NCBI RefSeq assembly: GCF_002154505.1
Contig: NZ_MUBM01000050.1
Coordinates: forward strand, 1 to 35,801
Origin: Streptomyces carpinensis
Lineage (GTDB): Bacteria > Actinomycetota > Actinomycetes > Streptomycetales > Streptomycetaceae
Length of the DNA: 35,801 nucleotides
Reading direction: 5' to 3'
Shown here: in pieces, positions 11,650 through 27,593 of the stretch
Numbering within the stretch: position 1 is the first letter of the stretch
Layout of the letters: the number at the start of each line of letters is the position of its first letter
Notes under the pieces: model-generated
The model's input: the letters and a program-made list of their open reading frames with translations, nothing else
Told to the model about the DNA's origin: nothing
Databases searched by the model: none
Translations under genes and position numbers: made by a program

Positions 11650-12570
11650 AGACGGATCCGTGACCGCGGCAGCAACGTGCTCGTCGGTGGCGGCTGCCTG
11701 GGCCAGGCGACGGTCCCTGATGCCGGCCGACCGCACCCGCAACGCCAGGAAGTGTGAGTGGATCGGCCCGCGGGGTCCTTCCCGCCAGGTGATCTCGGTG
11801 AACGCCTGTCGTACGTGGCTGGTGACCGTGTCGGCCACCGAGGAGGGCTGGTAGCGGCAGCGGGGTCGTAGCCTGCGGCCGTTGCCGGACCAGGGCGGGG
11901 TGATGGACTGGGCGTCGTCAGGGTGGACTGTGATGTCGGAGCGGACGGCCCCGACGTAGTCGATGCCCCGGTCGGTCAGGCCGTTTCGGAAGTCAGCGTT
12001 CTGGCCGTAGCCGGAATCGGCCACCACCACCGGCGGCACAAGCCCTCACAGTTCGTCTGCTCGCTCAAGGCCCTGCAGTGCTGGTGGCGACGGCGACCGG
12101 CATTCTGCCGTCCTCGGGAAACGCCCCGTCGTCGACCGCCCAGGCGTCCGGGCCGATCAGCGGCACCACCCATGGGCGATCCGGCGCCGCATCGGCACCG
12201 GATACCAGGTGAACTGGTTCACGAACTGCTGGGGGTTCTCTCGTTCCCATCCGGCAACCGCGAGGTCATGGCCTGGACGGACTTGCGGCGACCGTCCATC
12301 ATCAGTCCCCGCAGGGTGGCAGTCGCTCGTGGCCCGCTAGGCCCTGTCGTCAAACTCCCGTCGTCCGCCCGAAGGGCGGGCCCTGCGGCGTCAGGTGCGT
12401 GCTCTCGGCGTGCCGGGCGCAGACCCACGTACTGGACGTACTTGGGTCTGTGCCCGGTGCGGCGAGAGGGCGTGCATGGCGTCGCGGGGCAGACGGGAGT
12501 TTGACGACAGGGCCTAGTCCTTGCGCGGCACCGAGGCGAACACATCCGCCACGATAACGCCGGCTTCCCT
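11650..12570 (-). pseudogene. IS701-family-like transposase remnant, frameshifted and interrupted
   Basis: Read leftward, pieces of one transposase appear in order but in different frames: VADVFASVPRKD (about 12560-12518), then after the MITE RGLMMDGRRKSVQAM and WERENPQQFVNQFTWYPV, then VPLIGPDAWAVDDGAFPEDG, then PPVVVADSGYGQNADFRNGL and TEITWREGPRGPIHSHFLAL. These match the N-terminal, DDE-type core segments of IS701-family transposases of actinomycetes. At least three frame changes, a central deletion between the VDDGAF and VVVADSG blocks, and loss of the C-terminal part make it inactive. The palindromic element at 12337-12517 sits between the first two blocks. No clean IS ends were found. 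Confidence 0.8.
12337..12517. mobile_element. 181-bp MITE-like palindromic element inside the transposase remnant
   Basis: The ends are perfect 26-bp inverted repeats: 12337-12362 begins CTAGGCCCTGTCGTC and 12492-12517 is its exact complement, ending in CTAG. The CTAG (or TA) at each end is the probable target duplication. The interior is also largely self-complementary: CAGACCCA at 12420-12427 against TGGGTCTG at 12443-12450, and imperfect pairing outward of both. An extra hairpin, CCGCCC-GAA-GGGCGG, lies at 12365-12379. There is no coding capacity. These are the hallmarks of a miniature inverted-repeat element moved in trans, plausibly by an IS5-type transposase given the CTAG ends. It splits two consecutive blocks of the IS701-like gene. 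Confidence 0.85.
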
Positions 12571-12764: not shown

Positions 12765-13424
12765 ATGAGCGAGTCGCAGGCGCAGGAACCGGATGTGGAG
12801 CCGATCGGCGGCCCGGCGGCCCGGGAGGTCGATCAGCCGTCGCCCTCCGAGGGCGAACTGGAACGGGTCATCGGAGTGCAGGTGCGTCAGTACCGGGCGG
12901 CGACAGGACTGACCGTGGGAGAGCTGGCCACGCGTGCGGGAATCTCCAAGGCCATGCTGTCGAAGATCGAGAACGCCCGGATCTCGTGCAGCCTCACGAC
13001 GCTCGCCCGGCTGGCGGCAGCCCTGGACGTACCGGTGACCGCGCTGTTCCGCGGTGCCGACACAGGGCGGGAAGCCGTTTTCACACCGTCGGGTCAGGGG
13101 GCGCGCATCGTGCAGCGCGGCTCCCGGGTCGGGCATGACTACACCCTGCTGGGCGCGCTGCGCGGTCCCCACAGACGCATGGAGGCGCACCTGGTAACGC
13201 TGACGCAGCGGAGCGAGGTGTTCCCGCTCTTCCAGCATCCGGGTACCGAGCTGCTGTACATGCTGGAGGGCGAGGTGGTCTACGGCCATGGCGACGCCGA
13301 GTACCGGATGGGTCCCGGTGACGCATTGCAGCTGGACGGGGAGGGCTTGCATGGCCCAAAGGAGCTGGTTACGCTCCCGATCCGCTTTCTGTCGGTGGTC
13401 GCGTACGGCGACACGCCGGCCTGA
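12765..13424 (+). CDS. XRE-cupin (PuuR-like) transcriptional regulator
   Basis: A 219-residue regulator. Residues about 33-95 form an XRE helix-turn-helix (RQYRAATGLTVGELATRAG, SKAMLSKIENAR). Residues about 145-215 form a cupin barrel (HPGTELLYMLEGEVVY, YRMGPGDALQLDGEGLHGP) that usually senses a small amine or amino acid. This architecture is shared with PuuR and with regulators of polyamine, ethanolamine and related gamma-glutamylation pathways, which fits the glnT-containing operon that it converges on. GGGGA just before the ATG at 12765 supports the start. It is monocistronic, facing the decayed 3' end of the amine operon. Its target is inferred only from position; the glnT promoter region is the best candidate. 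Confidence 0.9.
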   Translation: MSESQAQEPDVEPIGGPAAREVDQPSPSEGELERVIGVQVRQYRAATGLTVGELATRAGISKAMLSKIENARISCSLTTLARLAAALDVPVTALFRGADTGREAVFTPSGQGARIVQRGSRVGHDYTLLGALRGPHRRMEAHLVTLTQRSEVFPLFQHPGTELLYMLEGEVVYGHGDAEYRMGPGDALQLDGEGLHGPKELVTLPIRFLSVVAYGDTPA

Positions 13425-13509: not shown

Positions 13510-14230
13510 TCAGCGACGCGAGGCAGGTTCTCGGACACGCCCCCGTCGCTGACGGTGTGCGGTGGGCTCAGAACCGGCGTGGTCCCGGTCTCCGGACTCC
13601 GGGCCGAGCAGTTCCGCCTCGCGCCCGATCGTGGTGTCGTCACCGTGCCCGGTGCGCACAACGGTGTCGTCCGGCAGCACGAACAGCCGCGCGCGGATCG
13701 ACTGGTTGATGACGGCCTCGTCGCTGTACGACCATCCCGTCGCCCCCGGACCGCCCCGAAAGAGTGTGTCGCCGGTGAAAACGCAGCCGAGGTCTGGTGC
13801 GCGGAAGCAGACCGCGCCGAGTGCATGGCCCGGTGTGTGGAGCACCCGCAGCGTGGTGGCGCCCACCCGGATCTCCGCTCCGTCGGACAGGTCGATGCCT
13901 CAGGTCATGTCGGGGTGGGTCAGTGCCCACAGGGCGTTTGTCGTCCGGGTGCAGCATGACCGGTGCGCCGGTCCGCTCGCGCAGCTCGGGCGCGACCCGG
14001 ACGTGGTCGTCGTGCGCGTGGGTGCACAGGATGGCCTTCACCTCCCGGTCGCCCACGACGGACATGATGTCGTCGACGTTGTGCGGGGCGTCCATGACGA
14101 CGCACTCGGTGTCGTCGCCGACGACCCAGATGTTGTTGTCGACGTCGAACCTCTGCCCGTCGATGCTGAAGGTGCTGCTGGAGACGGAGTGGTCGATCCT
14201 GACCCGCGTCTCGGGCGTCGAAACGGTCAC
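13510..14230 (-). pseudogene. Metallo-beta-lactamase-fold hydrolase (mscR partner), frameshifted with a stop
   Basis: The GTG at 14230 overlaps the mscR stop (GTGA), so translation was coupled. Metal ligands are present: HAHDDH (about residue 70), HTPGHALG, FTGDTLFRGGPGATGW and RTGHGDDTTIG. Such hydrolases next to S-(hydroxymethyl)mycothiol dehydrogenase are a conserved actinomycete pair, thought to release formate from S-formylmycothiol. Two lesions break it here. There is one extra base in the run at about 13936 (after HPDDK the frame changes), and after correcting that a TGA at 13900-13902 stands where a Trp is expected (HPDMT*GIDLSDG). The C-terminal end after EAELLGP also departs from the family. 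Either a decaying gene or local sequence errors. Confidence 0.8.
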
Positions 14231-15263
14231 GGGAACAGCACCACCGAGCGCAGTACGTCGCTGTGGTGCATTCGTTCGAAGGCCGCCTCGACGTCCTGGA
14301 TGCCGATCTCCTCGGTGACGAAGGCGTCGAGGTCGAGGCGGCCCTGGTGGTAGAGGTCGACGAGCATCGGGAAATCGCGGCCCGGCAGGCAGTCGCCGTA
14401 CCAGCACGACTTCAGGGCACCGCCCCGGCCGAAGATGTCGATGAGCGGGATGTCGGGCACCTTCATGTCGGGTGTCGGTACGCCCACCAGTACGACGGAG
14501 CCCGCGAGATCGCGGGCGTAGAACGCCTGTTTCCAGGTCTTCGGGCAGCCGACGGCGTCGATGACGACGTCGGCGCCGAGGCCGCCGGTGAGTTCCCGGA
14601 CCGCGGCTACCGGGTCGGTGCCGGACGAGTCGACGGTAGGGTCGCGCCCAGTTTCTTCGCGACGGCGAGCTTCTTGGGGCCGATGTCTATGGCGATGATG
14701 CGGCCGACGCCGACCAGCGCGGAGCCCGCTATGACCGCCACGCCGACTCCGCCACAGCCGATGACCGCGACGGACGTGCCCCGGGTGACCCCTCCGGTGT
14801 TGATGGCGGCTCCGAGGCCGGCCATCACCCCGCAGCCGAGCAGTCCGACCGCGGCGGGCCGGGCCGAGGGGTCGACCTTCGTGCACTGGCCCGCGGCCAC
14901 CAGGGTCTTCTCGGCGAACGCGCCGATGCCGAGGGCCGACGTCAGTTCGGTGCCGTCCTCCAGCGTCATCCTCTGCGTGGCGTTCTTGGTGGCGAAGCAG
15001 TACTGCGCCTCGCCGCGGCGGCAGGCGCGGCAGTCGCCGCACACCGCGCGCCAGTTGAGGATCACGAAGTCGCCCGGCGCGACAGCGGTGACGTCGTCGC
15101 CGACAGCCTCGACGACGCCGGCCGCCTCGGGTCCCAGCAGGAACGGGAACTTATCGTTGATGCCGCCCTCTCGATAGTGCAGGTCGGTGTGGCAGACGCC
15201 GCACGCCTGCACCTTCACCCGTGCTTCGCCCGGGCCGGGGGTGGGGACGTTGATCGTCTCCAC
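14227..15263 (-). pseudogene. mscR: S-(hydroxymethyl)mycothiol dehydrogenase, frameshifted
   Basis: A zinc alcohol dehydrogenase of the mycothiol-dependent formaldehyde dehydrogenase type, which oxidises S-hydroxymethylmycothiol to S-formylmycothiol with NAD. Family-specific stretches are [35 protein letters not shown] (structural zinc cysteines), [34 protein letters not shown] and [18 protein letters not shown]. Damage: near 14638-14642, after AVAKKLGAT, one base is missing relative to the family, so the last 135 or so codons continue in another frame. The conserved GHE of the catalytic site reads GPE (codon 15129-15131). The usual N-terminus is absent, leaving the GTG at 15263 as the only reasonable start. 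It follows the MTOX-like gene by 38 bp and overlaps the next gene. Confidence 0.87.
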
Positions 15264-15301
15264 AGAGACCGACTCTCCCTGCGGTGGGGAGTTGCGGAAG
15301 T

Positions 15302-16397
15302 TCAGTCGCGGAACGCGAAGCGCGGGTGCGCCGTGCCGCCCTGCACCAGGTCCGCGACGAGCGCCCCGACGAGGGGCGCGAACTTGGCGCCATGGCCGGA
15401 GCACGGCGAGGCGACGACCACGGAGCCCAGCCGGTCGATGACGAAGTCCTCGTCGGCCGTCATGGTGTACAGGCAGCTGCCCTCGGCGGCCGGTTCGGGG
15501 TCGAGCCCCGGCAACCGATGGCTCACCCAGGAAGTGACGATGTCCCGGGAGGTGGGGTTGATCCGTCCGTCCCGCGTGGAGGCGGTTGTCGGCGTCCCTC
15601 CGTCGTGCTGGGCGACCTTCATCGCGGGAACCGGGCCCCCGTCCGCTCCCGACGGCAGGCCGAAGAGCTGGATGCCCTCCTTGTAGACCATGGTCGGCCA
15701 CGCGGCCTGCGGGTCGCGGTGCCGGAAGTGGAACACCTGCTGCTGAGTGACCCAGGAGCGGGGCATCCGGGGTGAGCCCCCGATCGAGGGCAGCAGCTCG
15801 GGCAGCCACGGCCCCGCCGCGACGACCGCGCAACGGGCACTGAACGAACGGTCGTCGGTCTGAACGAGGACACCGTACGCAGTCTGCTCGACGCGGGTGA
15901 CCGGCTTGCCCTCGACGACCGTCGCACCCAGTGACACGGCGACATCGACACCGGCCCGCACCGTACGGTCCGCGTCCAGGTGGCCGGCGTCGGGGTGGAA
16001 CATGACGGGGCCGGTGAACACCATGCCGGGGAACTGTTCCTGGGCCGCTTCGGGGCGCAACAGTTCGGCGGTGACGCCCCGTTCCTTCATCAAGGCCACC
16101 AGTGCCTCCGGATTCCGTTCGGCGCCGTGATCGAGACCGCCGGTGCGGGTGCGAAGCACCTGGCCAGAGCGGTCCTCCAGCTCGTCCCACAGTTCCCCCG
16201 GCGCGACCCGTGAGGTCGATGTAGTCCGGATCGGCGTACGCACGTCGGTAAATGCGGGACGTACCGTGCGAGCTGCCCTGGTCGTGGCCGATGGCGCGGG
16301 CCTCGATCAGGGTGGTGTCGAGGCCACGGGCAGCCAACTGCCAAACCGCCGAGGAGCCCGCCAGGCCGACTCCGACGACCACCACGTCACAGTCCAC
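15302..16397 (-). pseudogene. MTOX / monomeric sarcosine oxidase-like flavoprotein, frameshifted
   Basis: A flavin amine oxidase of the N-methyltryptophan oxidase (SolA)/monomeric sarcosine oxidase family, which oxidatively N-demethylates secondary amino acids to give the primary amine, formaldehyde and H2O2. The GTG at 16397 (GGGAGG upstream) overlaps the preceding gene by 11 bp and opens with the FAD-binding [17 protein letters not shown]. The covalent-flavin cysteine region [15 protein letters not shown] (about residue 315) and [12 protein letters not shown] are present. After YIDLTGRAG the frame breaks: a run of five Gs (about 16197-16201) has one G more than the family reading [12 protein letters not shown] needs. 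With that corrected, the protein is about 364 residues, normal length. A homopolymer indel could be a sequencing error. Confidence 0.86.
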
Positions 16398-17727
16398 CGG
16401 TGCCTCCCGGGATCCAGGAGGTCCCCGCCAGCGGGACCCTCGCCATCGCGGCCGCCTCGATGGTGACGGCAACGAGGTCTTCGGGCTCCAGGTGCGTCAG
16501 GTGTGCCTTGCCGCAGGCCCGCGCAATGGTCTGGGCTTCCATGGTGAGGACGCGCAGGTAGTTGGCGAGCCGCCGACCGCCCTCGACCGGGTCGAACCTC
16601 TGCTGCAGCTCGGGGTCCTGGGTGGTGATGCCGGCGGGGTCCTGGCCATCCTGGAAGTCGTCGTAGTAGCCGGCCGCGGAGCCCAGGGCCTCGTACTCGG
16701 CGGACCACTTCGGGTCGTTGTCGCCGAGCGCGATCAGCGCGGCGGTGCCGATGGCGACCGCGTCGGCGCCCAACGCCATCGCCTTGGCGACGTCGGCGCC
16801 CGTCCGGATGCCGCCGGAGACGATGAGCTGGACCTTGCGGTGCATACCGAGTTCCTGCAAGGCCTGCACGGCCAGTGGGATCGCGGTCAGGGTCGGGATG
16901 CCGACGTGCTCGATGAAGACCTCCTGCGTGGCGGCGGTGCCGCCCTGCATGCCGTCCACGACCACGACGTCCGCGCCGGCGTGCACGGCGAGCTTCACGT
17001 CGTAATAGGTGCGGGTCGCCCCGACCTTGACGTAGACGGGCTTCTCCCAGTCGGTGGTCTCACGGATCTCGGCGATCTTGATGGCGAGGTCATCCGGTCC
17101 GGTCCAGTCAGGGTGGCGGCAGGCGCTGCGCTGGTCGACGCCCTGCGGAAGGGTACGCATCCGCGCCACCCGCTCGGTGATCTTCTGGCCGAGCAGCATG
17201 CCGCCACCGCCGGGCTTGGCGCCCTGGCCGAGGACGATCTCGATCGCGTCGGCCTTGCGGAGGTCGTCGGGGTTCATGCCGTACCGGGACGGCAGGTACT
17301 GGTAGACGAGGTGCTTGCTCTGGCCACGTTCCTCCGGGGTCATTCCGCCGTCACCGGTCGTGGTGGAGGTGCCGGCCTCGCTCGCGCCGCGTCCCAGCGC
17401 CTCCTTGGCTCGGCCGGACAGCGCGCCGAAGCTCATGCCGGCGATGGTGACTGGGATGTCGAGGTGGAGGGGGTGCTTGGCGTTGAGGTCTCCGAGCACC
17501 ACGTCGGTGCCGCAGCGCTCGCGGTAGCCCTCCAGCGGGTAGCGGGACATGCTCGCCCCGAGGAACAGCAGGTCGTCGAAGTGCGGCAGCGCCCGCTTGG
17601 CACCCCAGCCACGGATGTCGTAGACGCCGGTGCGAGCGGCGCGCTGGATCGCGCTGATGGTGACACGGTCGAAGGTGGCGGACTCACGCAGTCCGCGCTG
17701 TTCTGCCGAGAGACGGTGATCGGTCAT
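16387..17727 (-). CDS. mgsC: FMN-binding glutamate synthase-domain protein (N-methylglutamate synthase subunit C-like)
   Basis: A 446-residue (beta/alpha)8 enzyme of the GltS central/FMN domain type. Visible: [48 protein letters not shown], the FMN-phosphate region [18 protein letters not shown] and [20 protein letters not shown]. Together with the two upstream genes it forms a three-subunit enzyme resembling N-methylglutamate synthase, which turns gamma-glutamylmethylamide and a glutamate skeleton into N-methylglutamate. The stretch aligned to the [3Fe-4S] cysteine motif of glutamate synthases reads [15 protein letters not shown], with Asp where a Cys is usual; whether this is normal for the actinomycete subfamily I cannot verify. 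AAGGGG precedes the ATG at 17727; the gap from the GXGXG gene is 21 bp. Intact. Confidence 0.9.
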
Positions 17728-17748
17728 TGGCTGGCCCCTTGGTCTGTG

Positions 17749-18438
17749 TCAGTACGCGTCGGTGTTGTCGACGTGGAAGTTGTAGAGCCGCCGGGCCGAG
17801 CCGTAGCGGGTGTAGGCCGAGGTGTCCTCGCTCTCGAATCCGGCGCTCTTGAGCAGCCCGGCGAGTTCCTCGTGGTGTTCGGGGCGCATTTCCTTGGCCA
17901 CGCAGTCGGCGCCGAGGGAGGCGACCGTGCCCCGGACGTAGAGGCGCGCTTCGTAGATCGAGCCGCCGAGCGCCTCACCGGCGTCGCCTCGCACCACCAG
18001 GCGCCCGGCCTGGGCCATGAAGGCGCTCATGTGGCCGATGCTGCCGCCGACGACGATGTCGACGCCCTTCATGGAGATGCCGCAGCGGGCGGCGGCGTCG
18101 CCCTCGACGACGAGGAGGCCGCCGTGCGCGGTCGCTCCCGCGGACTGCGACGCGTCGCCGCGGACCAGCACCGATCCGCTCATCATGTTCTCCGCCACGC
18201 CAACACCGGCGTTGCCGTTGATGACCACGTCGGCCAGCTGGTTCATTCCCGCGGCGTAGTAGCCGACCTGGCCTTCGACGGTCACGCGCATCGCCTTGTT
18301 CAGTCCCACGGCCACGCTGTGCTTGCCGGCGGGATGGAGGATGCGCACCTCGTCGGCGGCGAGGTCGGCCTGGTGGAGAAGGCCGTTGACCTCGCGCAGC
18401 CAGCGTTCGGCGAGGTCGAGTTCGAGTACGTCGTGCAC
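17749..18438 (-). CDS. mgsB: GXGXG-domain glutamate synthase-like subunit (GlxC / N-methylglutamate synthase subunit B-like)
   Basis: About 229 residues forming the right-handed beta-helix found as domain 3 of glutamate synthase. The glycine repeats are clear: GYYAAGMNQLADVVINGNAG, GSVLVRGDASQSAG, HGGLLVVEGDAAARCG, VDIVVGGSIGHMS and GRLVVRGDAGEALGGSIYEA. This domain bridges the amidotransferase and FMN parts of the synthase, here encoded on either side. The start is ambiguous: the GTG at 18438 (MHDVLELDLAERW) has AAAGG upstream, whereas an ATG at 18480 would add 14 residues and overlap the amidotransferase stop by 13 bp. I prefer 18438 because family similarity starts there. Translational coupling with its neighbours is likely. 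Confidence 0.88.
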   Translation of the reverse strand: MHDVLELDLAERWLREVNGLLHQADLAADEVRILHPAGKHSVAVGLNKAMRVTVEGQVGYYAAGMNQLADVVINGNAGVGVAENMMSGSVLVRGDASQSAGATAHGGLLVVEGDAAARCGISMKGVDIVVGGSIGHMSAFMAQAGRLVVRGDAGEALGGSIYEARLYVRGTVASLGADCVAKEMRPEHHEELAGLLKSAGFESEDTSAYTRYGSARRLYNFHVDNTDAY

Positions 18439-18467
18439 GGCGGTGGCGCCTTTCGTCGGGTGAGGGG

Positions 18468-19370
18468 TCAGCGCGTCCATGCGTAGATCCGCTCGGGCTC
18501 TGGTTCGTAGAGGGAGGCGCTCTCGATGCCGGGAAGCCCGGTCAGCGCGCGGTACTCGCTGGCCACGGCGACCCAGTCCTGGGTCTCGGCGACGACCGCC
18601 GGCTTGCAGGCGATGGCGTCGCGGACGACGGCGAAGGACTCCCGGTTGGAGACCAGCAGGGTGTAGAAGCCGTCGAAGGTGGCACACAGTTCCTTGAGCG
18701 CGGTCTCGATGTCGAGCCCGGCCGCGAGCCGGTCGGCGACGAAGCGTGCTCCGACCTCGGTGTCGTTATCACTGTCGAACACCACGCCTCGGGTCCGTAG
18801 TTCGCGGCGGATGGTGGCGTGGTTGGAGAAGGACCCGTTGTGCACCAGGCACTGGCCGGGGCCCACCGCGTAAGGGTGGGAGCCGCCCGGGGTGACGGCG
18901 GACTCGGTCGCCATGCGGGTGTGCCCGACGCCCTGCCAGCCCTGGGCCGCCGCCAGACCGAAGCTGTCGGCGAGGGCGCGGGGGTGGCCGACACCCTTCA
19001 GTACGGCGATGTTCTCGCCGAAGCCGACCACCAGGGCCCCGGGCGCCGCCGTTGCGACCGCGGTGCGCAGGGCGTCGACCTCGACGGGCACGTTGACCAC
19101 CAGCGTAGGGGACGCGTCGACGACCCCCACAGGCGTGCCGGGCGGCAAAAGTTCTTCAAGCGCGGTGCGCAGTTCCGCGGGTGTCAGCGGGCTCTCGACG
19201 AGCGAGACGGCGGCGTGCCCGGGCGGGGACCAGCGCGGGTCGCCGTAGACCGCGACTCCGGCGGAGTCGGCGCCGCGGTCCTGCATCTCGCACAGCATCC
19301 CGGTCAGCAGGGTGCCCAACTGCGGGTAGAGGGCGGGGTTGCGCAGATGGAGCCCCACAATTCCGCACAT
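18468..19370 (-). CDS. mgsA: Class II glutamine amidotransferase (N-methylglutamate synthase subunit A-like)
   Basis: A 300-residue Ntn-hydrolase. The start MCGIVGLHL exposes the catalytic Cys2 after Met removal. Other class II motifs are MQDRGADSAG, GVGHTRMATESAV, CLVHNGSFSNHATIR and DNDTEVGARF. In glutamate synthase-like systems this domain removes the amide or alkylamide from a glutamine-like donor and passes it to the FMN domain. Here the donor would be the gamma-glutamylalkylamide made by the GlnT gene just upstream (38 bp gap). The order amidotransferase, GXGXG, FMN subunit is that of glxBCD/mgsABC clusters. GAGGAA, 3 nt before the ATG at 19370, supports the start. Intact, soluble, cytoplasmic. 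Confidence 0.92.
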   Translation of the reverse strand: MCGIVGLHLRNPALYPQLGTLLTGMLCEMQDRGADSAGVAVYGDPRWSPPGHAAVSLVESPLTPAELRTALEELLPPGTPVGVVDASPTLVVNVPVEVDALRTAVATAAPGALVVGFGENIAVLKGVGHPRALADSFGLAAAQGWQGVGHTRMATESAVTPGGSHPYAVGPGQCLVHNGSFSNHATIRRELRTRGVVFDSDNDTEVGARFVADRLAAGLDIETALKELCATFDGFYTLLVSNRESFAVVRDAIACKPAVVAETQDWVAVASEYRALTGLPGIESASLYEPEPERIYAWTR

Positions 19371-19408
19371 GCGTTCCTCGTTTCTCGACAGGTGTTTCGG
19401 GCTGGGTT

Positions 19409-20734
19409 TCAGAAGGCGGTGAGGTAGTGGTCGATCTCCCAGGACGTGACCTGGGAGTGCCAGCGGAAGAACTCCTCCCGCTTCAGCTCGCCGAAGTACC
19501 GGGCCACGCCGGCTCCGGCGCAGTCCAGTGCACCGCTGATGGTGGGGTCGGCCTCCAGGGCGTCCACGGCATGCAGCAGGGTCAGCGGGAGGGCCGCACG
19601 GTCGACGCCGTTGTCCCCGCCGGGGGTGCCGGGGTCGGTGTGCCGTGCGATGCCGTCCAGTCCGGCGCCGACCGCCGCCGCGATCGCCAGGTAGGGGTTG
19701 GCCGACCCGTCCCCGCCGCGCAGTTCGATGCGGTGTGCGTCGGGGACCCGCACGTAGTGGGTGCGGTCGTTGCCGCCGTACGTCGGCACGCGGGGCGCCC
19801 ACGAGGCACCCGAGCTCATACTCACCGCGCCGGTGCGCTTGTAGGAGTTGACCGAGGGGGCGAGTACGGCCTGCAAGGCCCCGGCGTGGTCCAGGACACC
19901 GCCGATGAAGTCGTATGCGAGGCTGGACAGTCCGAGACCGCGGAGGTCTGCGGCGTCGTGGGCGGGGAACAGCGGGCTGGAACCCTTCCACAGCGACAGG
20001 TGCAGGTGGAGACCCGAACCGGTGCGATCGGCGAAGGGCCTGGGCATGAAGGTCGCGGTCATCCCGCGCTGTTCGGCGATCATGGAGATCAGGTACCGCA
20101 GGGTAATGACACGGTCGGCGGTCGTCATCGCGTCGGCGTAGGCGAAGTTCTGCTCGAACTGACCATTTGCGTCCTCGTGGTCGTTGGCGTAGTTGCCCCA
20201 GCCGAGTTCGTTCATCCCGCGCGACACCGCGGCGAGGTGCTCGTACATGCGTGTCACGCCGCGGGCGTCGTAACAGGGCCGCGCTGCGTTGTCGCCGGGA
20301 TCGGCGGTGATGAGCCCGCCGTGCTCGTCCTGGTGGACCAGGAAGTACTCGACCTCGGCGCCCACGTGCACCGACAGATCGCACTCGGCGGCCTTGTCCA
20401 AGATGGAGCGCAGGATGTTCCGCGGCGCGTACGGCCACGGCTTACCCTCGACGTAAGGGTCGCAGTGGACGATCGCCAGCCCCTCCTTGATGAACGGCAC
20501 GGGTGTGAAGGACGACGCGTCGGGCAGCGCCATGATGTCGGGGTCCTTGGGCTCCTGGCCGAGGGCACCGGCCGCGTAACCCGCGAACCCGACTCCGTCG
20601 TTCTGAAGTTCCTCGATGGCCTCGATCGGTACGAGCTTGGCGCAGGGCTTGCCGATGAGGTCGACGAAGAGGGCGAGGATGAAGGTGGTGTCGTGCTTGG
20701 CAGCCAGGGTCGCCAGGTCTGTCATGTCGGGCAT
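19409..20734 (-). CDS. glnT: Type III glutamine synthetase-like GlnT (gamma-glutamylmethylamide synthetase-like)
   Basis: A 441-residue glutamine-synthetase-fold ligase that joins glutamate to ammonia or an alkylamine using ATP. Family motifs in order are FILALFVDLIGKPCAKLVP (N-terminal beta-grasp), VHVGAEVEYFLV (metal-binding glutamates), NDHEDANGQFEQNFAYADA, FMPRPFADRTGSGLHLHLSL (ATP/glutamate loop), APSVNSYKR and IELRGGDGSANPYLAIAAA. The first and third segments are typical of GlnT/GmaS rather than GlnA. In methylamine users this enzyme makes gamma-glutamylmethylamide, the feedstock of the downstream three-subunit synthase. It is the first gene of the lower operon, after a 316-bp gap. The ATG at 20734 (GAGAGG about 9 nt upstream) is preferred; the ATG at 20725 is a close alternative. 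Confidence 0.92.
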   Translation of the reverse strand: MPDMTDLATLAAKHDTTFILALFVDLIGKPCAKLVPIEAIEELQNDGVGFAGYAAGALGQEPKDPDIMALPDASSFTPVPFIKEGLAIVHCDPYVEGKPWPYAPRNILRSILDKAAECDLSVHVGAEVEYFLVHQDEHGGLITADPGDNAARPCYDARGVTRMYEHLAAVSRGMNELGWGNYANDHEDANGQFEQNFAYADAMTTADRVITLRYLISMIAEQRGMTATFMPRPFADRTGSGLHLHLSLWKGSSPLFPAHDAADLRGLGLSSLAYDFIGGVLDHAGALQAVLAPSVNSYKRTGAVSMSSGASWAPRVPTYGGNDRTHYVRVPDAHRIELRGGDGSANPYLAIAAAVGAGLDGIARHTDPGTPGGDNGVDRAALPLTLLHAVDALEADPTISGALDCAGAGVARYFGELKREEFFRWHSQVTSWEIDHYLTAF

Positions 20735-21050
20735 CGCTGTCAGGGCCTCTCGGACGGAGTCGCTGTGGGGTGTGCAGTTCTGGCGGCGGTGCGGGTGCCA
20801 CGTGTTGCCGGGCGGCCAAGCCTGTGTCTCGCGCCGGCAACCGGCCGGCCGCGTGATCACGATATGACCTCGATCCCTTACAGGAAACTTCGTTGCTTTG
20901 GAAACAGAAGGGGTGTTTCGCGGCGATGTCCTGGCTGTTGCTGCTCGGTTGGGTGAAGCTCTCCCCCTGACGCATGGGTGCCGCGCCGCTGCGTTCGTCG
21001 CGGACGTCGCCCGCTCATCGCCCGTTCGACCGGGGCGGTGTGACGGTCCG
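20735..21050. promoter_or_regulatory. glnT promoter region with GAAAC repeats
   Basis: A 316-bp non-coding gap between mmsA and glnT. Within it GAAAC occurs at 20884-20888 and again at 20901-20905, inverted as GTTTC at 20915-20919; the first two lie in GGAAAC repeats 17 bp apart. The cluster lies 150-186 bp upstream of the glnT start and is a candidate operator for the XRE-cupin regulator at 12765. No CATAC-N4-GTATG box was seen here. No gene was read. Confidence 0.4.
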
Positions 21051-22547
21051 CTAGACGTTCTGCGGGAACCCGAGTTCGATGCCGCCGTGGCTGGGGTCGA
21101 GCCAGCGCGAGGTGACGACCTTGCCGCGGGTGAAGAAGTGCACGCCCTCGGTCCCGTGAGCGTGGGTGTCGCCGAATAGTGAGTTCTTCCAACCCCCGAA
21201 GGAGTAATAGGCCATCGGAACCGGGATGGGCACGTTGATGCCGACCATGCCGACCTCCACCTCGTTCTGGAAGCGCCGTGCCGCACCGCCGTCGTTGGTG
21301 AAGATGGCCGTGCCGTTGCCGTACGGGTTGGCGTTGATCAGTGCGAGGGCTTCGTCATAGGTGTCCACCCGCACCACGGAGAGCACGGGGCCGAAGATCT
21401 CGTCGGTGTAGATGCTCATGTCGGTGGTCACGTCATCGATCAGGGTGGGGCCCAGCCAGAAGCCGTCCGGCCCTCCATCCGCCGCGACCTGCCGTCCGTC
21501 CACGACGATGGTCGCTCCGGCGGCCTCGCCGGCGTCGACGTACGAGGCCACCCTGTCCCGGTGGGCCTTCGTGACCAGGGGCCCCATGTCGCAGTTCTTC
21601 GTCCCGTCGCCGGTTTTGAGGGAAGCGGCGCGCTCGGCGATCTTGTCCACCAGTTCGTCGGCGATGTCACCGACGGCCACCAGGGCGCTGATGGCCATGC
21701 AGCGTTCGCCCGCGGAGCCGAAGCCGGCGTTGACCGCCGCGTCGGCCGCCAGGTCCAGGTCGGCGTCTGGCAGAACGACCATGTGGTTCTTCGCCCCGCC
21801 GAGGGCCTGGACACGCTTGCCATGGGCAGTGGCGGTGGCGTACACGTACTGGGCGATGGGTGTGGAGCCGACGAAGGAGACCGCCTTGATCGTGGGGTTC
21901 TCCAGGAGTTCGTCGACGGCGGTCTTGTCGCCCTGCAGCACGTTGAAGACACCGGGCGGCAGCCCGGCCTCGGTCCACAGCTCTGCCATCCACAGAGCTG
22001 CGGACGGGTCCTTCTCGCTGGGCTTGAGCACCACCGTGTTGCCCGCGGCGATGGCGATGGGGAAGAACCACATCGGCACCATCGCCGGGAAGTTGAAGGG
22101 GCTGATGATGCCGACCGGGCCGAGAGGCTGACGGACGGAGGCGACGTCGACCTTGGTGGACGCGTTCTCGGTCATACCGCCCTTGAGCAGGTGGGGCATG
22201 CCGCAGGCGAACTCGACGACCTCCTGCCCGCGGCTGACTTCTCCGAGCGCGTCGGAGAGCACCTTGCCATGCTCGGCCGTGATGATCCGGGCCAGTTCAC
22301 CCTTGCGCTCGTTGAGCACTTCGCGGAACCGGAAGACGATCTGGGTACGGCGGGTGAGAGAGGTGTCGCGCCAGGCCGGGAAGGCCGATTGGGCGGCGCC
22401 GATGACGGCGCGGGCGTCCGCGAGGTCGGCCAGGGCTACTTGACTGGTGATCTCGCCGGTCGCGGGGTTGGTCACGGGGGCAGTCCGGGCGCTCGTACCG
22501 AGGAACGGCTTGCCGTCGGACCAGTGCGCGATGGTGTGCGTCATCAT
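21051..22547 (-). CDS. mmsA: CoA-acylating methylmalonate-semialdehyde dehydrogenase-type ALDH
   Basis: A 498-residue aldehyde dehydrogenase of the MmsA/IolA group, which converts (methyl)malonate semialdehyde to propionyl- or acetyl-CoA with NAD and CoA. Group features: GGMTENASTKVDVASVRQPL, SPFNFPAMVPMWFFPIAI, the catalytic Cys in GSAGERCMAISALVAVG, and KRVQALGGAKNHMVVLPDA, where the usual general-base Glu of ordinary ALDHs is absent as in other CoA-acylating members. The C-terminal GDTHAHGTEGVHFFTRGKVVTSRW is diagnostic. GAAGGGA precedes the paired ATGs at 22547. It lies 18 bp after the cupin gene in one transcript with the FAD oxidase, suggesting that the oxidase product is a short-chain amino- or semialdehyde. 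Confidence 0.93.
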   Translation of the reverse strand: MMTHTIAHWSDGKPFLGTSARTAPVTNPATGEITSQVALADLADARAVIGAAQSAFPAWRDTSLTRRTQIVFRFREVLNERKGELARIITAEHGKVLSDALGEVSRGQEVVEFACGMPHLLKGGMTENASTKVDVASVRQPLGPVGIISPFNFPAMVPMWFFPIAIAAGNTVVLKPSEKDPSAALWMAELWTEAGLPPGVFNVLQGDKTAVDELLENPTIKAVSFVGSTPIAQYVYATATAHGKRVQALGGAKNHMVVLPDADLDLAADAAVNAGFGSAGERCMAISALVAVGDIADELVDKIAERAASLKTGDGTKNCDMGPLVTKAHRDRVASYVDAGEAAGATIVVDGRQVAADGGPDGFWLGPTLIDDVTTDMSIYTDEIFGPVLSVVRVDTYDEALALINANPYGNGTAIFTNDGGAARRFQNEVEVGMVGINVPIPVPMAYYSFGGWKNSLFGDTHAHGTEGVHFFTRGKVVTSRWLDPSHGGIELGFPQNV

Positions 22548-22565
22548 GATTCCCTTCGGGCGGTG

Positions 22566-22913
22566 TCAGAAGATGCTGTAGGCCTTGCGGAGCGTCTCGG
22601 TGACGTCCCAGCGTCCGGTCCAGCCCGGAGGAAGGACCACGTAGTCACCTGCGGAGATCTCGACGGCGGTCCCCGACTGCTCGTCGGTGAGGGTCGCCCG
22701 GCCGGAGATGATGTAGCAGGTTTCGGTGTTGGGCCGATCGACGACGGGCCACCCGCCCGGCTCGCACTCCCAGATGCCGACCTGGGCCGGGGTGCCCGCG
22801 TCCACCGGGAGGGTGTGCAGCTGCGGGTCTCCGGAGTCGGCGCCGGGCCTCCGGCCCGCGGGGCTCAGCGGGCCGACCACCTGGTGGCGGGGAAGGTGGA
22901 TCAACGAGGGCAT
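22566..22913 (-). CDS. Small cupin-domain protein (DUF861/cupin_3-like)
   Basis: A 115-residue single-domain cupin. The barrel shows IWECEPGGWPVVDRPNTETCYIISG and SAGDYVVLPPGWTGRWDVTETLRKAYSIF, the latter being the end typical of the cupin_3 group found beside amine-oxidising flavoproteins and in ureidoglycine metabolism. Function unknown: a small-molecule binding or lyase role in amine degradation is plausible. It lies between the FAD oxidase (42 bp upstream) and mmsA (18 bp downstream) and should be co-transcribed. The ATG at 22913 follows a GGGAGA ribosome site. Confidence 0.85.
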   Translation of the reverse strand: MPSLIHLPRHQVVGPLSPAGRRPGADSGDPQLHTLPVDAGTPAQVGIWECEPGGWPVVDRPNTETCYIISGRATLTDEQSGTAVEISAGDYVVLPPGWTGRWDVTETLRKAYSIF

Positions 22914-22955
22914 GGTGTGTTCTCCCTGATGTGTGGTGCGTGGGGTTGTTCCGGT

Positions 22956-24362
22956 TCAGTGGGCGCCGGTGAGCTTTTCGAGCAGCGCCGACACCTTGGA
23001 CGGCCTGTTCGTCAGCCGCTCCTCGAAGTCGGCTGCCGCGGCCGCCTGGAGGCCGGCGTTCACTCCGATCCAGCGGAAGGGCTCGACCTCCCAGCGCGGC
23101 GAGGTGTGGTTGACGACCGGCAGCCGGTTCAGCTCGTCGTGCCGGCCGGTGATGAGATTGCGCAGGATCCGCCCGGCGAGGTTGCTGGTCGCGACCCCGT
23201 CTCCGACGTAGGGCCCGGCCCACGCGATGCCCGACTTCTTGTCGTATCCGATCGACGGGAACCAGTCACGGGGAACGCCGAGCGGTCCGCCCCACCGGTG
23301 GGTGATCTCGACGTCGGCGAGGGCCGGGAAGAACTCGCGCATCGTCTCGATGATCTTGGCGTGGATCCTGGTGTCGACGTCGAACTCGGGCGAGACCTTG
23401 GAGCGGAAGTGGTACGGGGCACCCCGGCCGCCGAAGACAAGCCGCCCGTCCGCGGTCGGGTGGGCGTAGATTCGCAGATTGCGCATGTCGTTGAACGCGG
23501 TGCGGGAATCGAGCCCCAGCTCCTTGCGTACCGCATCCGGCAGTGGAGCGGTGGCCACGACCAGCGAGTACAGCGGAGCGACATGCCTGCGGTACGCCGC
23601 GAACTGCGGGGTGAACGCCTCGGTGGCGCGGACGACGACCGACGCCGTGACCGTCCCGTGGACCGTGCGAACGCAGCCGTTTGCGATGCCGGTGACCTCG
23701 GTGTTCTCGTAGATGGTTCCGCCCAGGCTCTCCACTCGGGAGGCGAGCCCACGCACGAGTTTGTCCGGGTGCAGCAGGGCGCAGTGCGGGGTGTGGATGC
23801 CGCCCAGCACGCCGTCGGCGTTGATCTTGGCCCGCGCCTGTTCGCCGCTCAGGAGTCGCCACTGCCCGTCCACCCCGAACGCCGCCGCGCCGGCGACGGT
23901 GGCCTCGGCTCGAGCGAGCTGCGCGGGCGTACGGGCGAGCGAGACGAAGCCTTCGGGGGCGAAGTCGCAGTCGATGGTCTCCTGCTCGGTGACTCGGCCC
24001 ACCTCGGTGACGGTCTCGTTCATCGCCCGCTGCATGTCCAGTGCCGCCTGGTGTGAGTACAGCTGCCGCACCCGCTGCAGGGAGACCGGGAAGATCGCTG
24101 AGCACCATCCGCCGTTGCGGCCCGAAGCACCAAAGCCGGCGTACTCCCGCTCCAGCAGGACCACCTTCAGGGTGGGGTCCTCCTTGAGGAGGTAGTAGGC
24201 CGCCCACAGACCGGTGAAACCGGCGCCGACAATGGCGACATCGGCCGAAGTGCTGCCCGGCAGAGCGGGCCTGCGGGATGAGGACTCCCGGCTCTCCGCC
24301 CACAGGGGCACCCCCGAAGAGCTCTCCGTGCCGCGCACCGTGCGGACCTGACCGACCACCAT
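22956..24362 (-). CDS. FAD-dependent amine/amino-acid oxidase, gamma-glutamylputrescine oxidase (PuuB)-like
   Basis: A 468-residue DAO-family flavoprotein. The FAD motif is DVAIVGAGFTGLWAAYYLL (about residue 41), followed by the PuuB-type REYAGFGASGRNGGWCSAIFP. The second half has RIYAHPTADGRLVFGGRG, THRWGGPLGVPRDWFPSIGYD and GPYVGDGVATSNLAGRILRN. Relatives oxidise gamma-glutamylated or free amines to an aldehyde plus amine and H2O2. As first gene of the unit with the cupin and mmsA, it may feed the aldehyde dehydrogenase directly. GGGAGG before the ATG at 24362 supports the start. The first 38 residues are a poorly conserved extension. It diverges from the PucR regulator; a candidate PucR site lies 92-105 bp upstream. 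Confidence 0.9.
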   Translation of the reverse strand: MVVGQVRTVRGTESSSGVPLWAESRESSSRRPALPGSTSADVAIVGAGFTGLWAAYYLLKEDPTLKVVLLEREYAGFGASGRNGGWCSAIFPVSLQRVRQLYSHQAALDMQRAMNETVTEVGRVTEQETIDCDFAPEGFVSLARTPAQLARAEATVAGAAAFGVDGQWRLLSGEQARAKINADGVLGGIHTPHCALLHPDKLVRGLASRVESLGGTIYENTEVTGIANGCVRTVHGTVTASVVVRATEAFTPQFAAYRRHVAPLYSLVVATAPLPDAVRKELGLDSRTAFNDMRNLRIYAHPTADGRLVFGGRGAPYHFRSKVSPEFDVDTRIHAKIIETMREFFPALADVEITHRWGGPLGVPRDWFPSIGYDKKSGIAWAGPYVGDGVATSNLAGRILRNLITGRHDELNRLPVVNHTSPRWEVEPFRWIGVNAGLQAAAAADFEERLTNRPSKVSALLEKLTGAH

Positions 24363-24453
24363 CGCTGCCTCCCTGGTGTCTTTACTGGGGCCAGTCTTGG
24401 ATCACGGGGTCGAAGGGGACATCCGTCCGATGCACAGTGCTCTTTCCGCGCGC

Positions 24454-24467
24454 TGTACGTTCGTATG
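24454..24467. promoter_or_regulatory. Candidate PucR operator, pucR/oxidase divergent promoter
   Basis: TGTACGTTCGTATG, whose complement CATACGAACGTACA matches 11 of 14 positions of the CATACGAATGTATG palindrome found before the permease gene. It lies 24 bp upstream of the regulator's GTG and in the shared 128-bp divergent gap with the FAD oxidase gene, so it could control both directions. Confidence 0.6.
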
Positions 24468-24490
24468 AAGCACACGAGAAAGGGGCCGCT

Positions 24491-25963
24491 GTGATCACAG
24501 TCGACGGCCTGGTGTCCGTACCCTCGCTGGGCCTGACATACCTGGCCGGATCTCGCGGTGGCTCCCGCCCGGTCACCTGGGCGCACGCGTGCGACCTGCC
24601 TGATCCCTGGCGCTGGTTCAAGGCGGGCGACCTGGTGATGACCACGGGTGGAGGGCTGCCCACCGGATCGCCTGAGCAGGAGCTGTGGATCACCCGGCTG
24701 ATCGACAGCCGGGTGAGTGCTCTGGTGGTCGCACCGGAAGCCGGAGCACCGGAGGTGACCCCCGAGCTCCTTGACGCAGCCGACAGTCGGAACTTCCCGG
24801 TGCTGTCGGCAAGCTTTGACCTGCAGTTCGTCACCCTGGCCCGCACCGTCATCGAGAGTGCGGTCGAGGCAGAACGCGAGCGGCTGGCGACCATTAAACG
24901 TTTGTATGACGTGTACTGGCAGTCACTGCGTGCCCGCGGCACCTTCGACACCCGTATCTCAGCCCTGGAAGGCAGCATCGGATGGGCGCTGGAGGTACGG
25001 GATCTGGACGTCGGCGAAATGCTGGCCCAGGGTCGTCAGGCCGCCAGGCGGCGGTCGGCACACCCCGAGGGCCCCGACGCCGAAGGCACGCAGGTGCCCA
25101 TCCCTGGGGTCGGCAACGTCGCCCTGGTGGCTTATCCCGGTCGACGGCCCGTCCAGGACCGTCCCCTGCTCCAACACCTGGGCGGACTGATCGCTCTGGA
25201 ACTGGAACATCACGCCGCCCAGCGCGACCATCTGCGGGCATCCGGAGAGGACCTGCTGCTCGGCCTGCTCGACGACACCATCGACCTGTCGGCGGTCTGG
25301 CCGGAGCTGCGTCACCGAGGGATGGCCGGGGCCGTGGTCGTCGCCTGCTGGAAGGCATCCAATGACGCACCGCTTCACCACGAGAACGTTCACCACGACG
25401 TGCGCCTGCAGGACTGCGCACCGCTCCTGGCGTATCGCTCCCCCATGCTCCTGGGTGTCGTCCCCGACGACGGTGAGCTCCTGGCGTCCCTCTCGACCAA
25501 GCTCGCAGAGCACTGCGCGGTCGGCCTAAGCACTCCCCTGGCCGCCAGCACCCAGGTCTCCGAAGCCGCACGGCAGGCGCAACTCGCCGTGGCCAGAGCG
25601 CACGAGGCCGGCACATCGCTGGTGCGCTACGGAAACGACCAGCGCGACAGCGGATTCCTGCCACGCAGCCTCGAGGACACCCGCCAGCTCGTCCGCCGTA
25701 TCCTCGGTCCGTTGATCACATACGACCGTGCCCACGACGGCGATCTCATCACCTCATTGCGGACGTTCCTGGCCAATGACGGTGGCTGGCAGCGAAGCTC
25801 GGACGACCTGGGCATCCATCGACAGACCCTCGTGTACCGGCTGCGCAAGGTGGAGCAGCTCACCGGACTGAAGCCGACATCGACGCGCGGTTCAGCCATG
25901 CTGTGGCTCGCGCTTCAGGCGACGGACAGCGCGCAACTGTCTCTCGACGACCTCATGACCTGA
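24491..25963 (+). CDS. PucR-family transcriptional regulator
   Basis: A 490-residue regulator. Residues about 1-130 form the PucR N-terminal sensor (SVPSLGLTYLAG, RPVTWAHACDLPDPWRWFKA, GDLVMTTGG). The middle has no recognised domain. Residues about 420-485 are the PucR-type C-terminal helix-turn-helix (SLRTFLANDGGWQRSSDDLG, HRQTLVYRLRKVEQLTGL). PucR proteins usually activate purine, amine or amino-acid catabolic genes in response to a substrate. Divergent from the FAD oxidase-cupin-mmsA unit and followed by the permease gene, it is the natural local regulator. The GTG at 24491 is chosen because AAAGGGG precedes it and family similarity begins there; the frame stays open upstream. A palindromic box lies before this gene and before the permease. 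Confidence 0.93.
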   Translation: MITVDGLVSVPSLGLTYLAGSRGGSRPVTWAHACDLPDPWRWFKAGDLVMTTGGGLPTGSPEQELWITRLIDSRVSALVVAPEAGAPEVTPELLDAADSRNFPVLSASFDLQFVTLARTVIESAVEAERERLATIKRLYDVYWQSLRARGTFDTRISALEGSIGWALEVRDLDVGEMLAQGRQAARRRSAHPEGPDAEGTQVPIPGVGNVALVAYPGRRPVQDRPLLQHLGGLIALELEHHAAQRDHLRASGEDLLLGLLDDTIDLSAVWPELRHRGMAGAVVVACWKASNDAPLHHENVHHDVRLQDCAPLLAYRSPMLLGVVPDDGELLASLSTKLAEHCAVGLSTPLAASTQVSEAARQAQLAVARAHEAGTSLVRYGNDQRDSGFLPRSLEDTRQLVRRILGPLITYDRAHDGDLITSLRTFLANDGGWQRSSDDLGIHRQTLVYRLRKVEQLTGLKPTSTRGSAMLWLALQATDSAQLSLDDLMT

Positions 25964-25986
25964 TGCCGAACTTCTCGCCAAGCCGC

Positions 25987-26000
25987 CATACGAATGTATG
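25987..26000. promoter_or_regulatory. Candidate PucR operator upstream of the permease
   Basis: CATACGAATGTATG: 5-bp arms CATAC and GTATG, perfectly inverted around GAAT. It lies 24 bp after the pucR stop and 151 bp before the permease ATG. It matches the box upstream of pucR, so the same protein probably binds both. Confidence 0.62.
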
Positions 26001-26150
26001 AGGGTCGGCTCCAGGGTTCGCGAAACCGCGCATGGCCCGGTCAGCGCTCCGACGGGATGGTGGTCCGCATCACAGGCACACTCGGCCAGCCCCGTCCGGG
26101 CCCGCGGCTTCCTCGCGCAGACGGTCGGGGCGATGCGAAGGGAACCGCGC

Positions 26151-27593
26151 ATGGGCACGATCCCCGATGACACCACCCCGTTGCGGGCTGGTCTCAAGCA
26201 ACGCCATCTGACCATGATCTCGCTGGGCGGCGTCATCGGCGCAGGCCTCTTCATCGGTTCAAGCGCGATCATTCACGAAGCCGGCCCCGGCGCGTTCATC
26301 ACCTACGGACTCACCGGCCTCCTTGTCCTCCTGGTAATGCGGCAGTTGGGCGAGATGGCCGCGGCCCGGCCAAGCACCGGGTCGTTCACCGACTACGCCC
26401 GCATGGCCCTCGGCCCCTGGGCGGGCTTCTCCACCGGCTGGCTGTACTGGTACTTCTGGGTGATCGTCGTCGGCTTCGAGGCGGTTGTGGGCGGCCAGAT
26501 GATCAACAAGTGGTTGCCCGGGTTGCCGGTATGGCTCATCGCTCTCGGACTTCTTGTCATCATGACAGCCATCAACCTGATGTCCGTCGGCTCGTTCGGC
26601 GAGGCGGAATACTGGTTCGCCGGCATCAAAGTGGCCGCCATCATCGTGTTCATCCTCCTCGCCGGCCTCTTCGTACTCGGCCTGTGGCCGGGCGCCGAGC
26701 TGTCCTTCGCCAACCTGACCGAGCACGGTGGCTTCTTCCCCAACGGCCTGGCCCCGGTGCTCTCGGGCGTGGTCGTGGTGATCTTCTCCATGACCGGGGT
26801 GGAAGTCGTGACAGTGGCGGCCGCCGAGTCGAAGGAGCCGGGTAACGCGATCCGCAAGGCGGTCAGCTCTGTCGTCTTCCGCATCCTGGGCTTCTTCGTC
26901 CTGTCCACCTTCCTCATCGTGGTGATCAGGCCCTGGAGCGCGATCACTCCCGGCGAGTCCCCGTTCGTGGCGGCGCTGGACGGTATCGGCATTCCCGCCG
27001 CCGCGGACATCCTCAACGCCGTGGTCCTGGTCGCCGTGCTGTCCTGTCTGAACTCCGGCCTCTACACCGCGTCCCGCATGCTCTTCGTCCTGGGCGGCCG
27101 CGGAGATGCGCCTCGGTGGATGACAGCCGTCAACCGCCGGGGTGTCCCCGTCAAGGGACTTCTGTCGTGCACGGTCGTCGGATACGGCTGTGTGATGCTC
27201 TCCGCGCTCTGGCCGGACACGGTCTTCCTCTTCCTGATCAACGCATCAGGTGCGGTCTTCCTCTTCGTCTACCTCCTGATCAGCCTGTCCCAGCTACGCA
27301 TGCGCAAGCGCCTCGAAGCGGAGACACCAGGCGGGCTGACGTTCAAGATGTGGCTGCATCCGTTCCTGCCCGTCCTCGTCGCACTGGCCATCGCCGCGGT
27401 TCTCATCAGCATGGGCGTGAGGAGTGAGTCGCGGATCGAACTGCTCCAGGGGGTCGTCGTGTGGGCACTCATGTCAGCCATCTATGCCGTCCGAAAGCGG
27501 TTCGGCCCCTCCCACGGAAAGCCTTCCAACGGCGAGCCCAACGACAACCCCACTCACGGTCGATCCAAGCCATCCGCAGCGGCGTCACACTGA
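26151..27593 (+). CDS. Amino acid/amine permease, APC superfamily (GabP-like)
   Basis: A 480-residue, 12-TM transporter of the amino acid transporter family. The TM1 signature ISLGGVIGAGLFIGSSAIIHEAGPG includes the backbone-binding GAGLF turn; also seen are GEMAAARPSTGSFTDYA, the conserved TM6 region FSMTGVEVVTVAAAESKEP and LNSGLYTASRMLFVL in TM8. The C-terminal 30 residues are a hydrophilic tail. It should import an amino acid, GABA-like compound or small amine with protons and is the best uptake candidate for the amine locus. AAGGGA before the ATG at 26151 supports this start over the upstream ATG at 26133. It follows pucR on the same strand, but the 187-bp gap with its own operator-like palindrome suggests a separate promoter. 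Confidence 0.92.
   Translation: MGTIPDDTTPLRAGLKQRHLTMISLGGVIGAGLFIGSSAIIHEAGPGAFITYGLTGLLVLLVMRQLGEMAAARPSTGSFTDYARMALGPWAGFSTGWLYWYFWVIVVGFEAVVGGQMINKWLPGLPVWLIALGLLVIMTAINLMSVGSFGEAEYWFAGIKVAAIIVFILLAGLFVLGLWPGAELSFANLTEHGGFFPNGLAPVLSGVVVVIFSMTGVEVVTVAAAESKEPGNAIRKAVSSVVFRILGFFVLSTFLIVVIRPWSAITPGESPFVAALDGIGIPAAADILNAVVLVAVLSCLNSGLYTASRMLFVLGGRGDAPRWMTAVNRRGVPVKGLLSCTVVGYGCVMLSALWPDTVFLFLINASGAVFLFVYLLISLSQLRMRKRLEAETPGGLTFKMWLHPFLPVLVALAIAAVLISMGVRSESRIELLQGVVVWALMSAIYAVRKRFGPSHGKPSNGEPNDNPTHGRSKPSAAASH

Follow-up and report, generated by a model that had tools for sequence, protein, structure and literature searches.

A predicted single-subunit N-methylglutamate oxidase encoded with GlnT-MgsABC in Streptomyces carpinensis and other Actinobacteria

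Results and discussion

The subject of this work is a window of 35,801 nucleotides from Streptomyces carpinensis (assembly GCF_002154505.1, contig NZ_MUBM01000050.1, positions 1 to 35,801), in which a gene cluster of the GlnT-MgsABC type is followed by a gene for an MSOX/MTOX-type oxidase. Judging from sequence comparisons, the product of this gene is probably an N-methylglutamate (NMG) oxidase that replaces the four-subunit, folate-linked NMG dehydrogenase (MgdABCD) in what is likely a pathway for methylamine. We also consider it reasonably probable that in Actinobacteria MgdABCD has been displaced by a single-subunit flavoprotein of either the MSOX/MTOX type or a SoxB-like type, that this constitutes a branch of the NMG pathway in which free formaldehyde passes into mycothiol chemistry, and that the mycobacterial MgdA-D is probably a sarcosine oxidase. 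The variant is likely widespread in Actinobacteria, with a damaged copy in the window, and apparently new. Our literature search, which left subscription papers mostly outside its reach, found no description of GlnT-MgsABC with a single-subunit oxidase, and the term 'N-methylglutamate oxidase' was absent from the literature searched.

Methylamine commonly serves as a source of carbon and nitrogen, with gmaS as a marker gene for its use, according to the available parts of PMC7948447; those parts, and the corresponding parts of PMC13390433, name methylene-folate as what NMG dehydrogenase forms. If our proposal is true, many actinobacteria (39/394 sampled genomes) possess the indirect methylamine pathway, mostly without its folate-linked last enzyme, and peroxide and free formaldehyde arise where the known pathway yields methylene-folate. 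Two enzyme activities would then be open to assay, and a published gene assignment would be called into question.

Gene organization and proposed pathway

The genes glnT, mgsA, mgsB, mgsC, oxidase, mscR and MBL form a tight leftward run on the minus strand from 20734 to 13510, with short gaps or overlaps, as had been described in the initial annotation of this DNA. The gene for GlnT, a gamma-glutamylmethylamide synthetase of the GmaS type (19409..20734, 441 amino acids), is an open frame and matches NCBIfam TIGR03105 with 591.8 bits (cut-off 469.6). It is followed by open frames for the class II glutamine amidotransferase subunit MgsA (18468..19370, 300 amino acids; Pfam GATase_6/7 and conserved order), the GXGXG subunit MgsB (17749..18480, start uncertain; Pfam GXGXG with 32.6 bits against a cut-off of 32.5, and conserved order) and MgsC, the glutamate-synthase-like subunit that binds flavin mononucleotide (FMN) (16387..17727, 446 amino acids; Pfam Glu_synthase with 305.9 bits). 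Next come an MSOX/MTOX-type oxidase dependent on flavin adenine dinucleotide (FAD) (about 15302..16394), recognized by family models and by its match in Streptomyces sp. NBC_01320, mscR for S-(hydroxymethyl)mycothiol dehydrogenase (about 14227..15287; TIGR03451 on two pieces) and a gene for an MBL-fold hydrolase (13510..14230; Pfam Lactamase_B on one piece). These last 3 of the 7 genes are not intact: each changes frame internally, near 16.2, 14.64 and 13.9 kb, respectively.

In the scheme that we infer for the substrates, the products, the use of oxygen and the mycothiol step, GlnT would join methylamine to glutamate in an ATP-dependent reaction, MgsA would free the amine from gamma-glutamylmethylamide, and MgsB and MgsC would place it on 2-oxoglutarate to give NMG. 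The oxidase, with FAD held on a conserved cysteine, would convert the N-methyl group of NMG and O2 to formaldehyde and H2O2 and return glutamate. The formaldehyde would leave the enzyme free and be captured by mycothiol, after which oxidation by MscR and hydrolysis by an MBL protein would yield formate. In most of the other actinobacterial loci surveyed a SoxB-like FAD protein occupies the same slot.

The oxidase slot

We compared 119 distinct loci, comprising the best 80 of 579 confirmed MgsC relatives, 35 loci from an even class sample, the window and loci L106, L012 and L013, after 3 duplicates had been dropped. The set ranked by MgsC is biased toward close relatives, and because each stretch was cut at about 10 kb or where its contig ended, the absence of a neighboring gene is soft. 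Oxidases were assigned at identity cut-offs of 50% for MgdA, 45% for the SoxB-like and 40% for the MTOX type.

The order GlnT-MgsA-MgsB-MgsC is kept in 89 of the 99 actinobacterial and all 20 proteobacterial loci. Among the actinobacterial loci, 58 carry a SoxB-like oxidase, 23 the MTOX type, 6 MgdA and 12 none in the available stretch, and among the proteobacterial loci 18 carry MgdA and 2 none; no locus of the 119 has two oxidase types at these cut-offs. The genomes of the 12 actinobacterial loci without an oxidase hold a SoxB-like relative elsewhere (10 genomes, 52-68% identity) or the MTOX type (2 genomes, 45-46%), and the two proteobacterial ones have MgdA elsewhere. By a distance rule, 43 of the SoxB-like genes immediately follow MgsC and 7 immediately precede GlnT, and 17 of the MTOX-type genes immediately follow MgsC; three more (L129, L136 and the window) are adjacent by coordinates, and the others are farther off, 2.0 kb (L124) and 2.7 kb (L074) downstream and 6.0 kb upstream (L135). 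The earlier suggestion of a single MTOX-like oxidase in the slot of the dehydrogenase thus has good comparative support beyond the window, with the amendment that the slot is filled by two forms, of which the SoxB-like is the commoner.

The MTOX-type oxidase has the MSOX fold and the residues R49, R52, K265, C315 and K348, including the conserved cysteine on which MSOX carries its FAD. It differs from the known MSOX/MTOX enzymes in being encoded with GlnT-MgsABC, in its identity of only 25-34% to the solved members and in its scores, since the NBC_01320 oxidase falls just below the NCBIfam cut-off for MTOX (249 against 257 bits) and well below that for SoxA_mon (210.8 against 479.65). Neither single oxidase contains a GCV_T folate-binding domain at E<=1e-5, and both give only DAO and weaker nucleotide-binding matches; GCV_T is present in MgdC and MgdD of L079. 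Lacking a folate-binding domain, a single oxidase would let formaldehyde leave the enzyme free. SoxBDAG, which has four subunits and a folate domain, likewise oxidizes an N-methyl amino acid, and the DAO fold of SoxB is common to both single oxidases, but SoxBDAG is below the cut-offs in most of the single-oxidase genomes.

The catalytic residues being those of MSOX, the adjacent enzyme could instead be an oxidase of sarcosine or another N-methyl amino acid that is merely co-regulated with GlnT-MgsABC. Relatives of it also occur at loci without MgsC, twice with Amt and an M20 amidohydrolase as neighbors (L153, L154), a setting that could serve the release of sarcosine. We regard this explanation as unlikely: it leaves most of these genomes without an NMG demethylase, and two dissimilar FAD proteins occupy the one slot and never share any of the 119 loci at the cut-offs used. 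A candidate arginine for the second carboxylate of NMG, at about position 284 (NBC_01320 numbering), is present in 22/22 linked proteins and also in 5/9 unlinked ones, and we make no claim for it.

Partition of the last-step candidates among genomes

The class sample consisted of 394 genomes drawn evenly, with cut-offs of E<=1e-150 for MgsC, E<=1e-100 for the SoxB-like oxidase, E<=1e-80 for the MTOX type and E<=1e-90 for the MgdA/SoxB level. MgsC was found in 39 genomes, from 16/137 genera. The SoxB-like oxidase is present in 25 of these 39 and in 7 of the 355 without MgsC, and the MTOX type in 8 of the 39. Five of the remaining six have a true MgdA, and the sixth (G404) has a SoxB-like gene in two pieces at locus L144. 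Every one of the 39 genomes therefore holds one of the three candidates for the last step and none holds two at the cut-offs used. Of the 7 genomes with a SoxB-like gene and no MgsC call, 4 do carry an adjacent GlnT-MgsABC with an MgsC of 65-67% identity (L155-L158), which indicates that the MgsC cut-off was slightly strict; in the stretches fetched for the others (L159-L161) there is no GlnT-MgsABC beside the SoxB-like gene. One further genome (G204, 80% complete) has four MgdA-level genes (515-531 bits) and no MgsC at the cut-off.

We searched for MgdA in the whole genomes of 46 actinobacteria (43 of the 60 in the ranked set, together with G000, G014 and G054), a single plasmid record and three proteobacteria. 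A true MgdA was found in 3/3 proteobacteria and in 1/46 actinobacteria (Pseudonocardia dioxanivorans); a SoxB-level gene alone was found in 16 of the 46, and in the other 29 nothing reached E<=1e-40. Since MgdA/SoxB-level genes are missing from most of the genomes searched, the four-subunit enzyme is not the general answer for NMG there.

These results bear on the explanation that NMG is demethylated by a heterotetrameric SoxBDAG-like enzyme encoded elsewhere in the genome, as proposed for Mycobacterium, and that the adjacent oxidase has another role. In the available parts of PMC5023230, MgdA-D lies at a distance from gma-mgs in two Mycobacterium strains, and in the window's own genome a SoxB-level gene is adjoined by SoxA. 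Of the 34 genomes with a single oxidase in the class sample, however, only 5 have a SoxB-level gene at E<=1e-90 (G000, which is the window's genome, G235, G252, G304 and G479) and the other 29 have none, in line with the 29 of 46 above, and MgdA (at least 515 bits) and SoxB (at most 403 bits) are well apart. The window's genome has no MgdA near MgsC, and its best match to MgdA is the SoxB-level one (46%, 387 bits). We therefore give this explanation little credence. In the same genome, the SoxB and SoxA genes of L108 (81-18312) stand in an apparent cluster, recognized partly by eye, with dimethylglycine dehydrogenase-like, FolD, GlyA and transporter genes; another mscR is found there, with no MBL neighbor in the available stretch.

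The work on methylotrophic Mycobacterium (PMC5023230) describes the same gma-mgsABC cluster in an actinobacterium and hypothesizes a role in methylamine use. It differs from our proposal in assigning MgdA-D to distant genes; mycothiol is nowhere mentioned in it, nor, in the parts consulted, is a single-subunit oxidase. According to the same parts, MgdA-D is also present in Arthrobacter strains without gma/mgs, which, together with its distance from gma-mgs, fits a sarcosine oxidase; as far as those parts go, we would reassign the published mycobacterial MgdA-D accordingly.

Synthesis of N-methylglutamate

Among solved structures GlnT is closest to RhGmaS (7cql, 386.1 bits), then to a glutamate-methylamine ligase (9qur, 349.6 bits) and next to a glutamine synthetase, at 185.5 bits. 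We compared 18 GmaS positions drawn from the available parts of PMC7948447, with the glutamate and Mg sites covered in part. GlnT is identical to RhGmaS at 16 of them, including Lys30, Tyr147, Asp177, Glu179, Glu186, Asn188 and Arg312. The 16 also include the GmaS-like Ala48 at the Asp50' position of glutamine synthetase and Trp300 at the Glu-flap position, and by its ATP and amine residues and these two replacements GlnT belongs to GmaS. MgsABC is recognized by its amidotransferase, GXGXG and FMN subunits, encoded as three genes after the GmaS gene. The solved structures related to MgsC in sequence are those of glutamate synthases and, farther off, other enzymes. The cluster is thus like the proteobacterial GmaS-MgsABC-MgdABCD in its GmaS-type GlnT and the shared gene order through MgsABC, the window MgsC being 81-86% identical to those of the 20 proteobacterial loci, and differs from it in having a single FAD protein in place of the four-subunit MgdABCD with its folate-binding domains, and no FolD or PurU neighbors.

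It is quite improbable, in our opinion, that the substrate of GlnT-MgsABC is ammonia, ethylamine or ethanolamine instead of methylamine. The two changed positions (Gln175 to Ala and Trp189 to Phe) could be taken in favor of another amine, as could the production of theanine from ethylamine with GMAS (PMC7677707, in the parts available). Against this stand the GmaS-like Ala and Trp and the neighbors of many actinobacterial clusters: Amt-type transporters near 46/81 single-oxidase loci, and genes for the haem-dependent oxidative N-demethylase HODM and DmmA-like proteins near 15/81, all of which suit dimethylamine and methylamine as substrates. Neither Amt nor HODM/DmmA-like genes are present in the matched stretch of the window. 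A gene for a small EutQ-type cupin (PF06249) occurs near the HODM/DmmA-like genes at L053 (6342-6719) and six other loci, and EutQ genes beside methylated-amine genes are reported in the available parts of PMC5023230. An M20 allantoate-amidohydrolase-like gene (L015:12939-14159 and relatives; NF006770, 598 bits) is found near 21/81 single-oxidase loci.

Fate of the formaldehyde

FolD is near 14/24 MgdA loci and 0/81 single-oxidase loci, PurU near 15/24 and 1/81, and mscR near 0/24 and 6/81 (the window, L106, L114, L129, L053 and L056). Mycothiol as the carrier, as first suggested for the window, has positional support at those six loci, with mscR placed directly after the oxidase, immediately 3' of MgsC, in only three of them: the window, Streptomyces sp. 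NBC_01320 and L114. The last belongs to an actinobacterium of family f6 and has GlnT-MgsABC, a SoxB-like oxidase and then mscR and MBL, the latter two in open frames. Gene order is conserved elsewhere for GlnT-MgsABC and, in NBC_01320, for an intact oxidase-mscR pair; mscR as a constant partner of the single oxidases we rejected.

The intact mscR of NBC_01320 scores 665.5 bits with TIGR03451 (cut-off 512.9), and the window pieces score 376 and 228.6 separately. The adjacent MBL-fold gene (Lactamase_B matches both the window piece and the L114 gene) is predicted from its pairing with mscR to encode an S-formylmycothiol hydrolase. The genome has five further close mscR genes (72-77%), so formaldehyde handling need not reside at the locus. 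Four of the five have an adjacent MBL gene, and the window pair is like these, differing in its position behind the oxidase operon and in that both genes are broken.

Several observations weigh against the proposal. The oxidase, mscR and MBL genes of the window are broken. In the class sample only the best 4-5 candidates per genome were scored, and the MTOX type occurs at its cut-off in 9/355 genomes without MgsC. The MgsC-linked MTOX-type proteins are not an exclusive clade: the clade that holds the 22 linked proteins numbers 27 and takes in 5 unlinked ones, and the tree shows 4 linked/unlinked label changes where shuffling gives 9.4 on average. In P. dioxanivorans MgdA coexists with MTOX-type genes at 43-46%, below the class-sample E cut-off, one of them about 8 kb beyond mgdA, and G198 combines MgdA-level and MTOX-type genes with no MgsC at the cut-off. 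It is because of P. dioxanivorans and the unlinked MTOX-type cases that we lowered slightly our confidence in the displacement of MgdABCD. Finally, mscR is near few single-oxidase loci, and FolD and PurU do not always accompany mgd: P. dioxanivorans is the only actinobacterium with MgdA, FolD and PurU together, and neither gene is in the fetched stretch of the five other actinobacterial MgdA loci, which are those of the class sample. The contrast in one-carbon carriers is for these reasons mainly one between phyla.

State of the locus in the window

The linear plasmid of Streptomyces sp. NBC_01320 (NZ_CP108391.1, L106) carries glnT-mgsA-mgsB-mgsC-oxidase-mscR, with the oxidase and mscR open and an XRE gene convergent, and is 82% identical to the window across 7.2 kb. 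The oxidase pieces of the window are 79-80% and the mscR pieces 82-87% identical to the intact plasmid genes, and the protein database contains full-length relatives of the oxidase (P0002-P0007, 364-365 amino acids) with 77-81% identity.

We see about an even chance that the window locus is a decaying remnant rather than a working pathway in this strain; such a reading can stand together with an NMG oxidase in the family. Three neighboring genes are each frame-broken, the MBL gene between mscR and the XRE gene is broken in NBC_01320 as well, and a C-terminal piece of a DDE transposase (Pfam DDE_5, 11458-12039) lies close to the operon; transposase genes also surround the copy on the related plasmid. 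On the other hand, the ratio of nonsynonymous to synonymous substitution rates of the window oxidase and mscR pieces against the plasmid relative is 0.13-0.22, which resembles that of the intact genes (0.05-0.22) and indicates that the decay is recent or that the frame breaks are sequencing errors, the assembly consisting of 10.4 Mb in 824 contigs; the five other mscR genes could also substitute. If the sequence is right, the oxidation half of this copy would be disabled in the strain.

Neighboring genes

The initial annotation had treated 13510..27593 as one locus, which we divide into two units: the alignment with the NBC_01320 plasmid covers only 12.7-20.8 kb, and as it stops at 20757 the genes upstream of glnT are outside the operon unit. 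They encode MMSDH (21051-22547; TIGR01722, 698 bits), an EutQ-like cupin (22566-22913), a DAO-family oxidoreductase (22956-24362), a PucR regulator (24278-25963) and an APC protein resembling gamma-aminobutyrate permease (25998-27593). The set of PucR, DAO, cupin and MMSDH, joined by a partial APC match, is found again on a plasmid of Rhodococcus sp. JS3073 (L162), in a stretch with no GlnT/Mgs match; the DAO protein groups with this set and is unsupported as a member of the pathway. On the other side, an XRE-cupin regulator (12765..13424, plus strand; Pfam HTH_31 and Cupin_2) is convergent with the operon and 89% identical to the convergent gene in NBC_01320, and such a regulator is present at most of the actinobacterial clusters surveyed.

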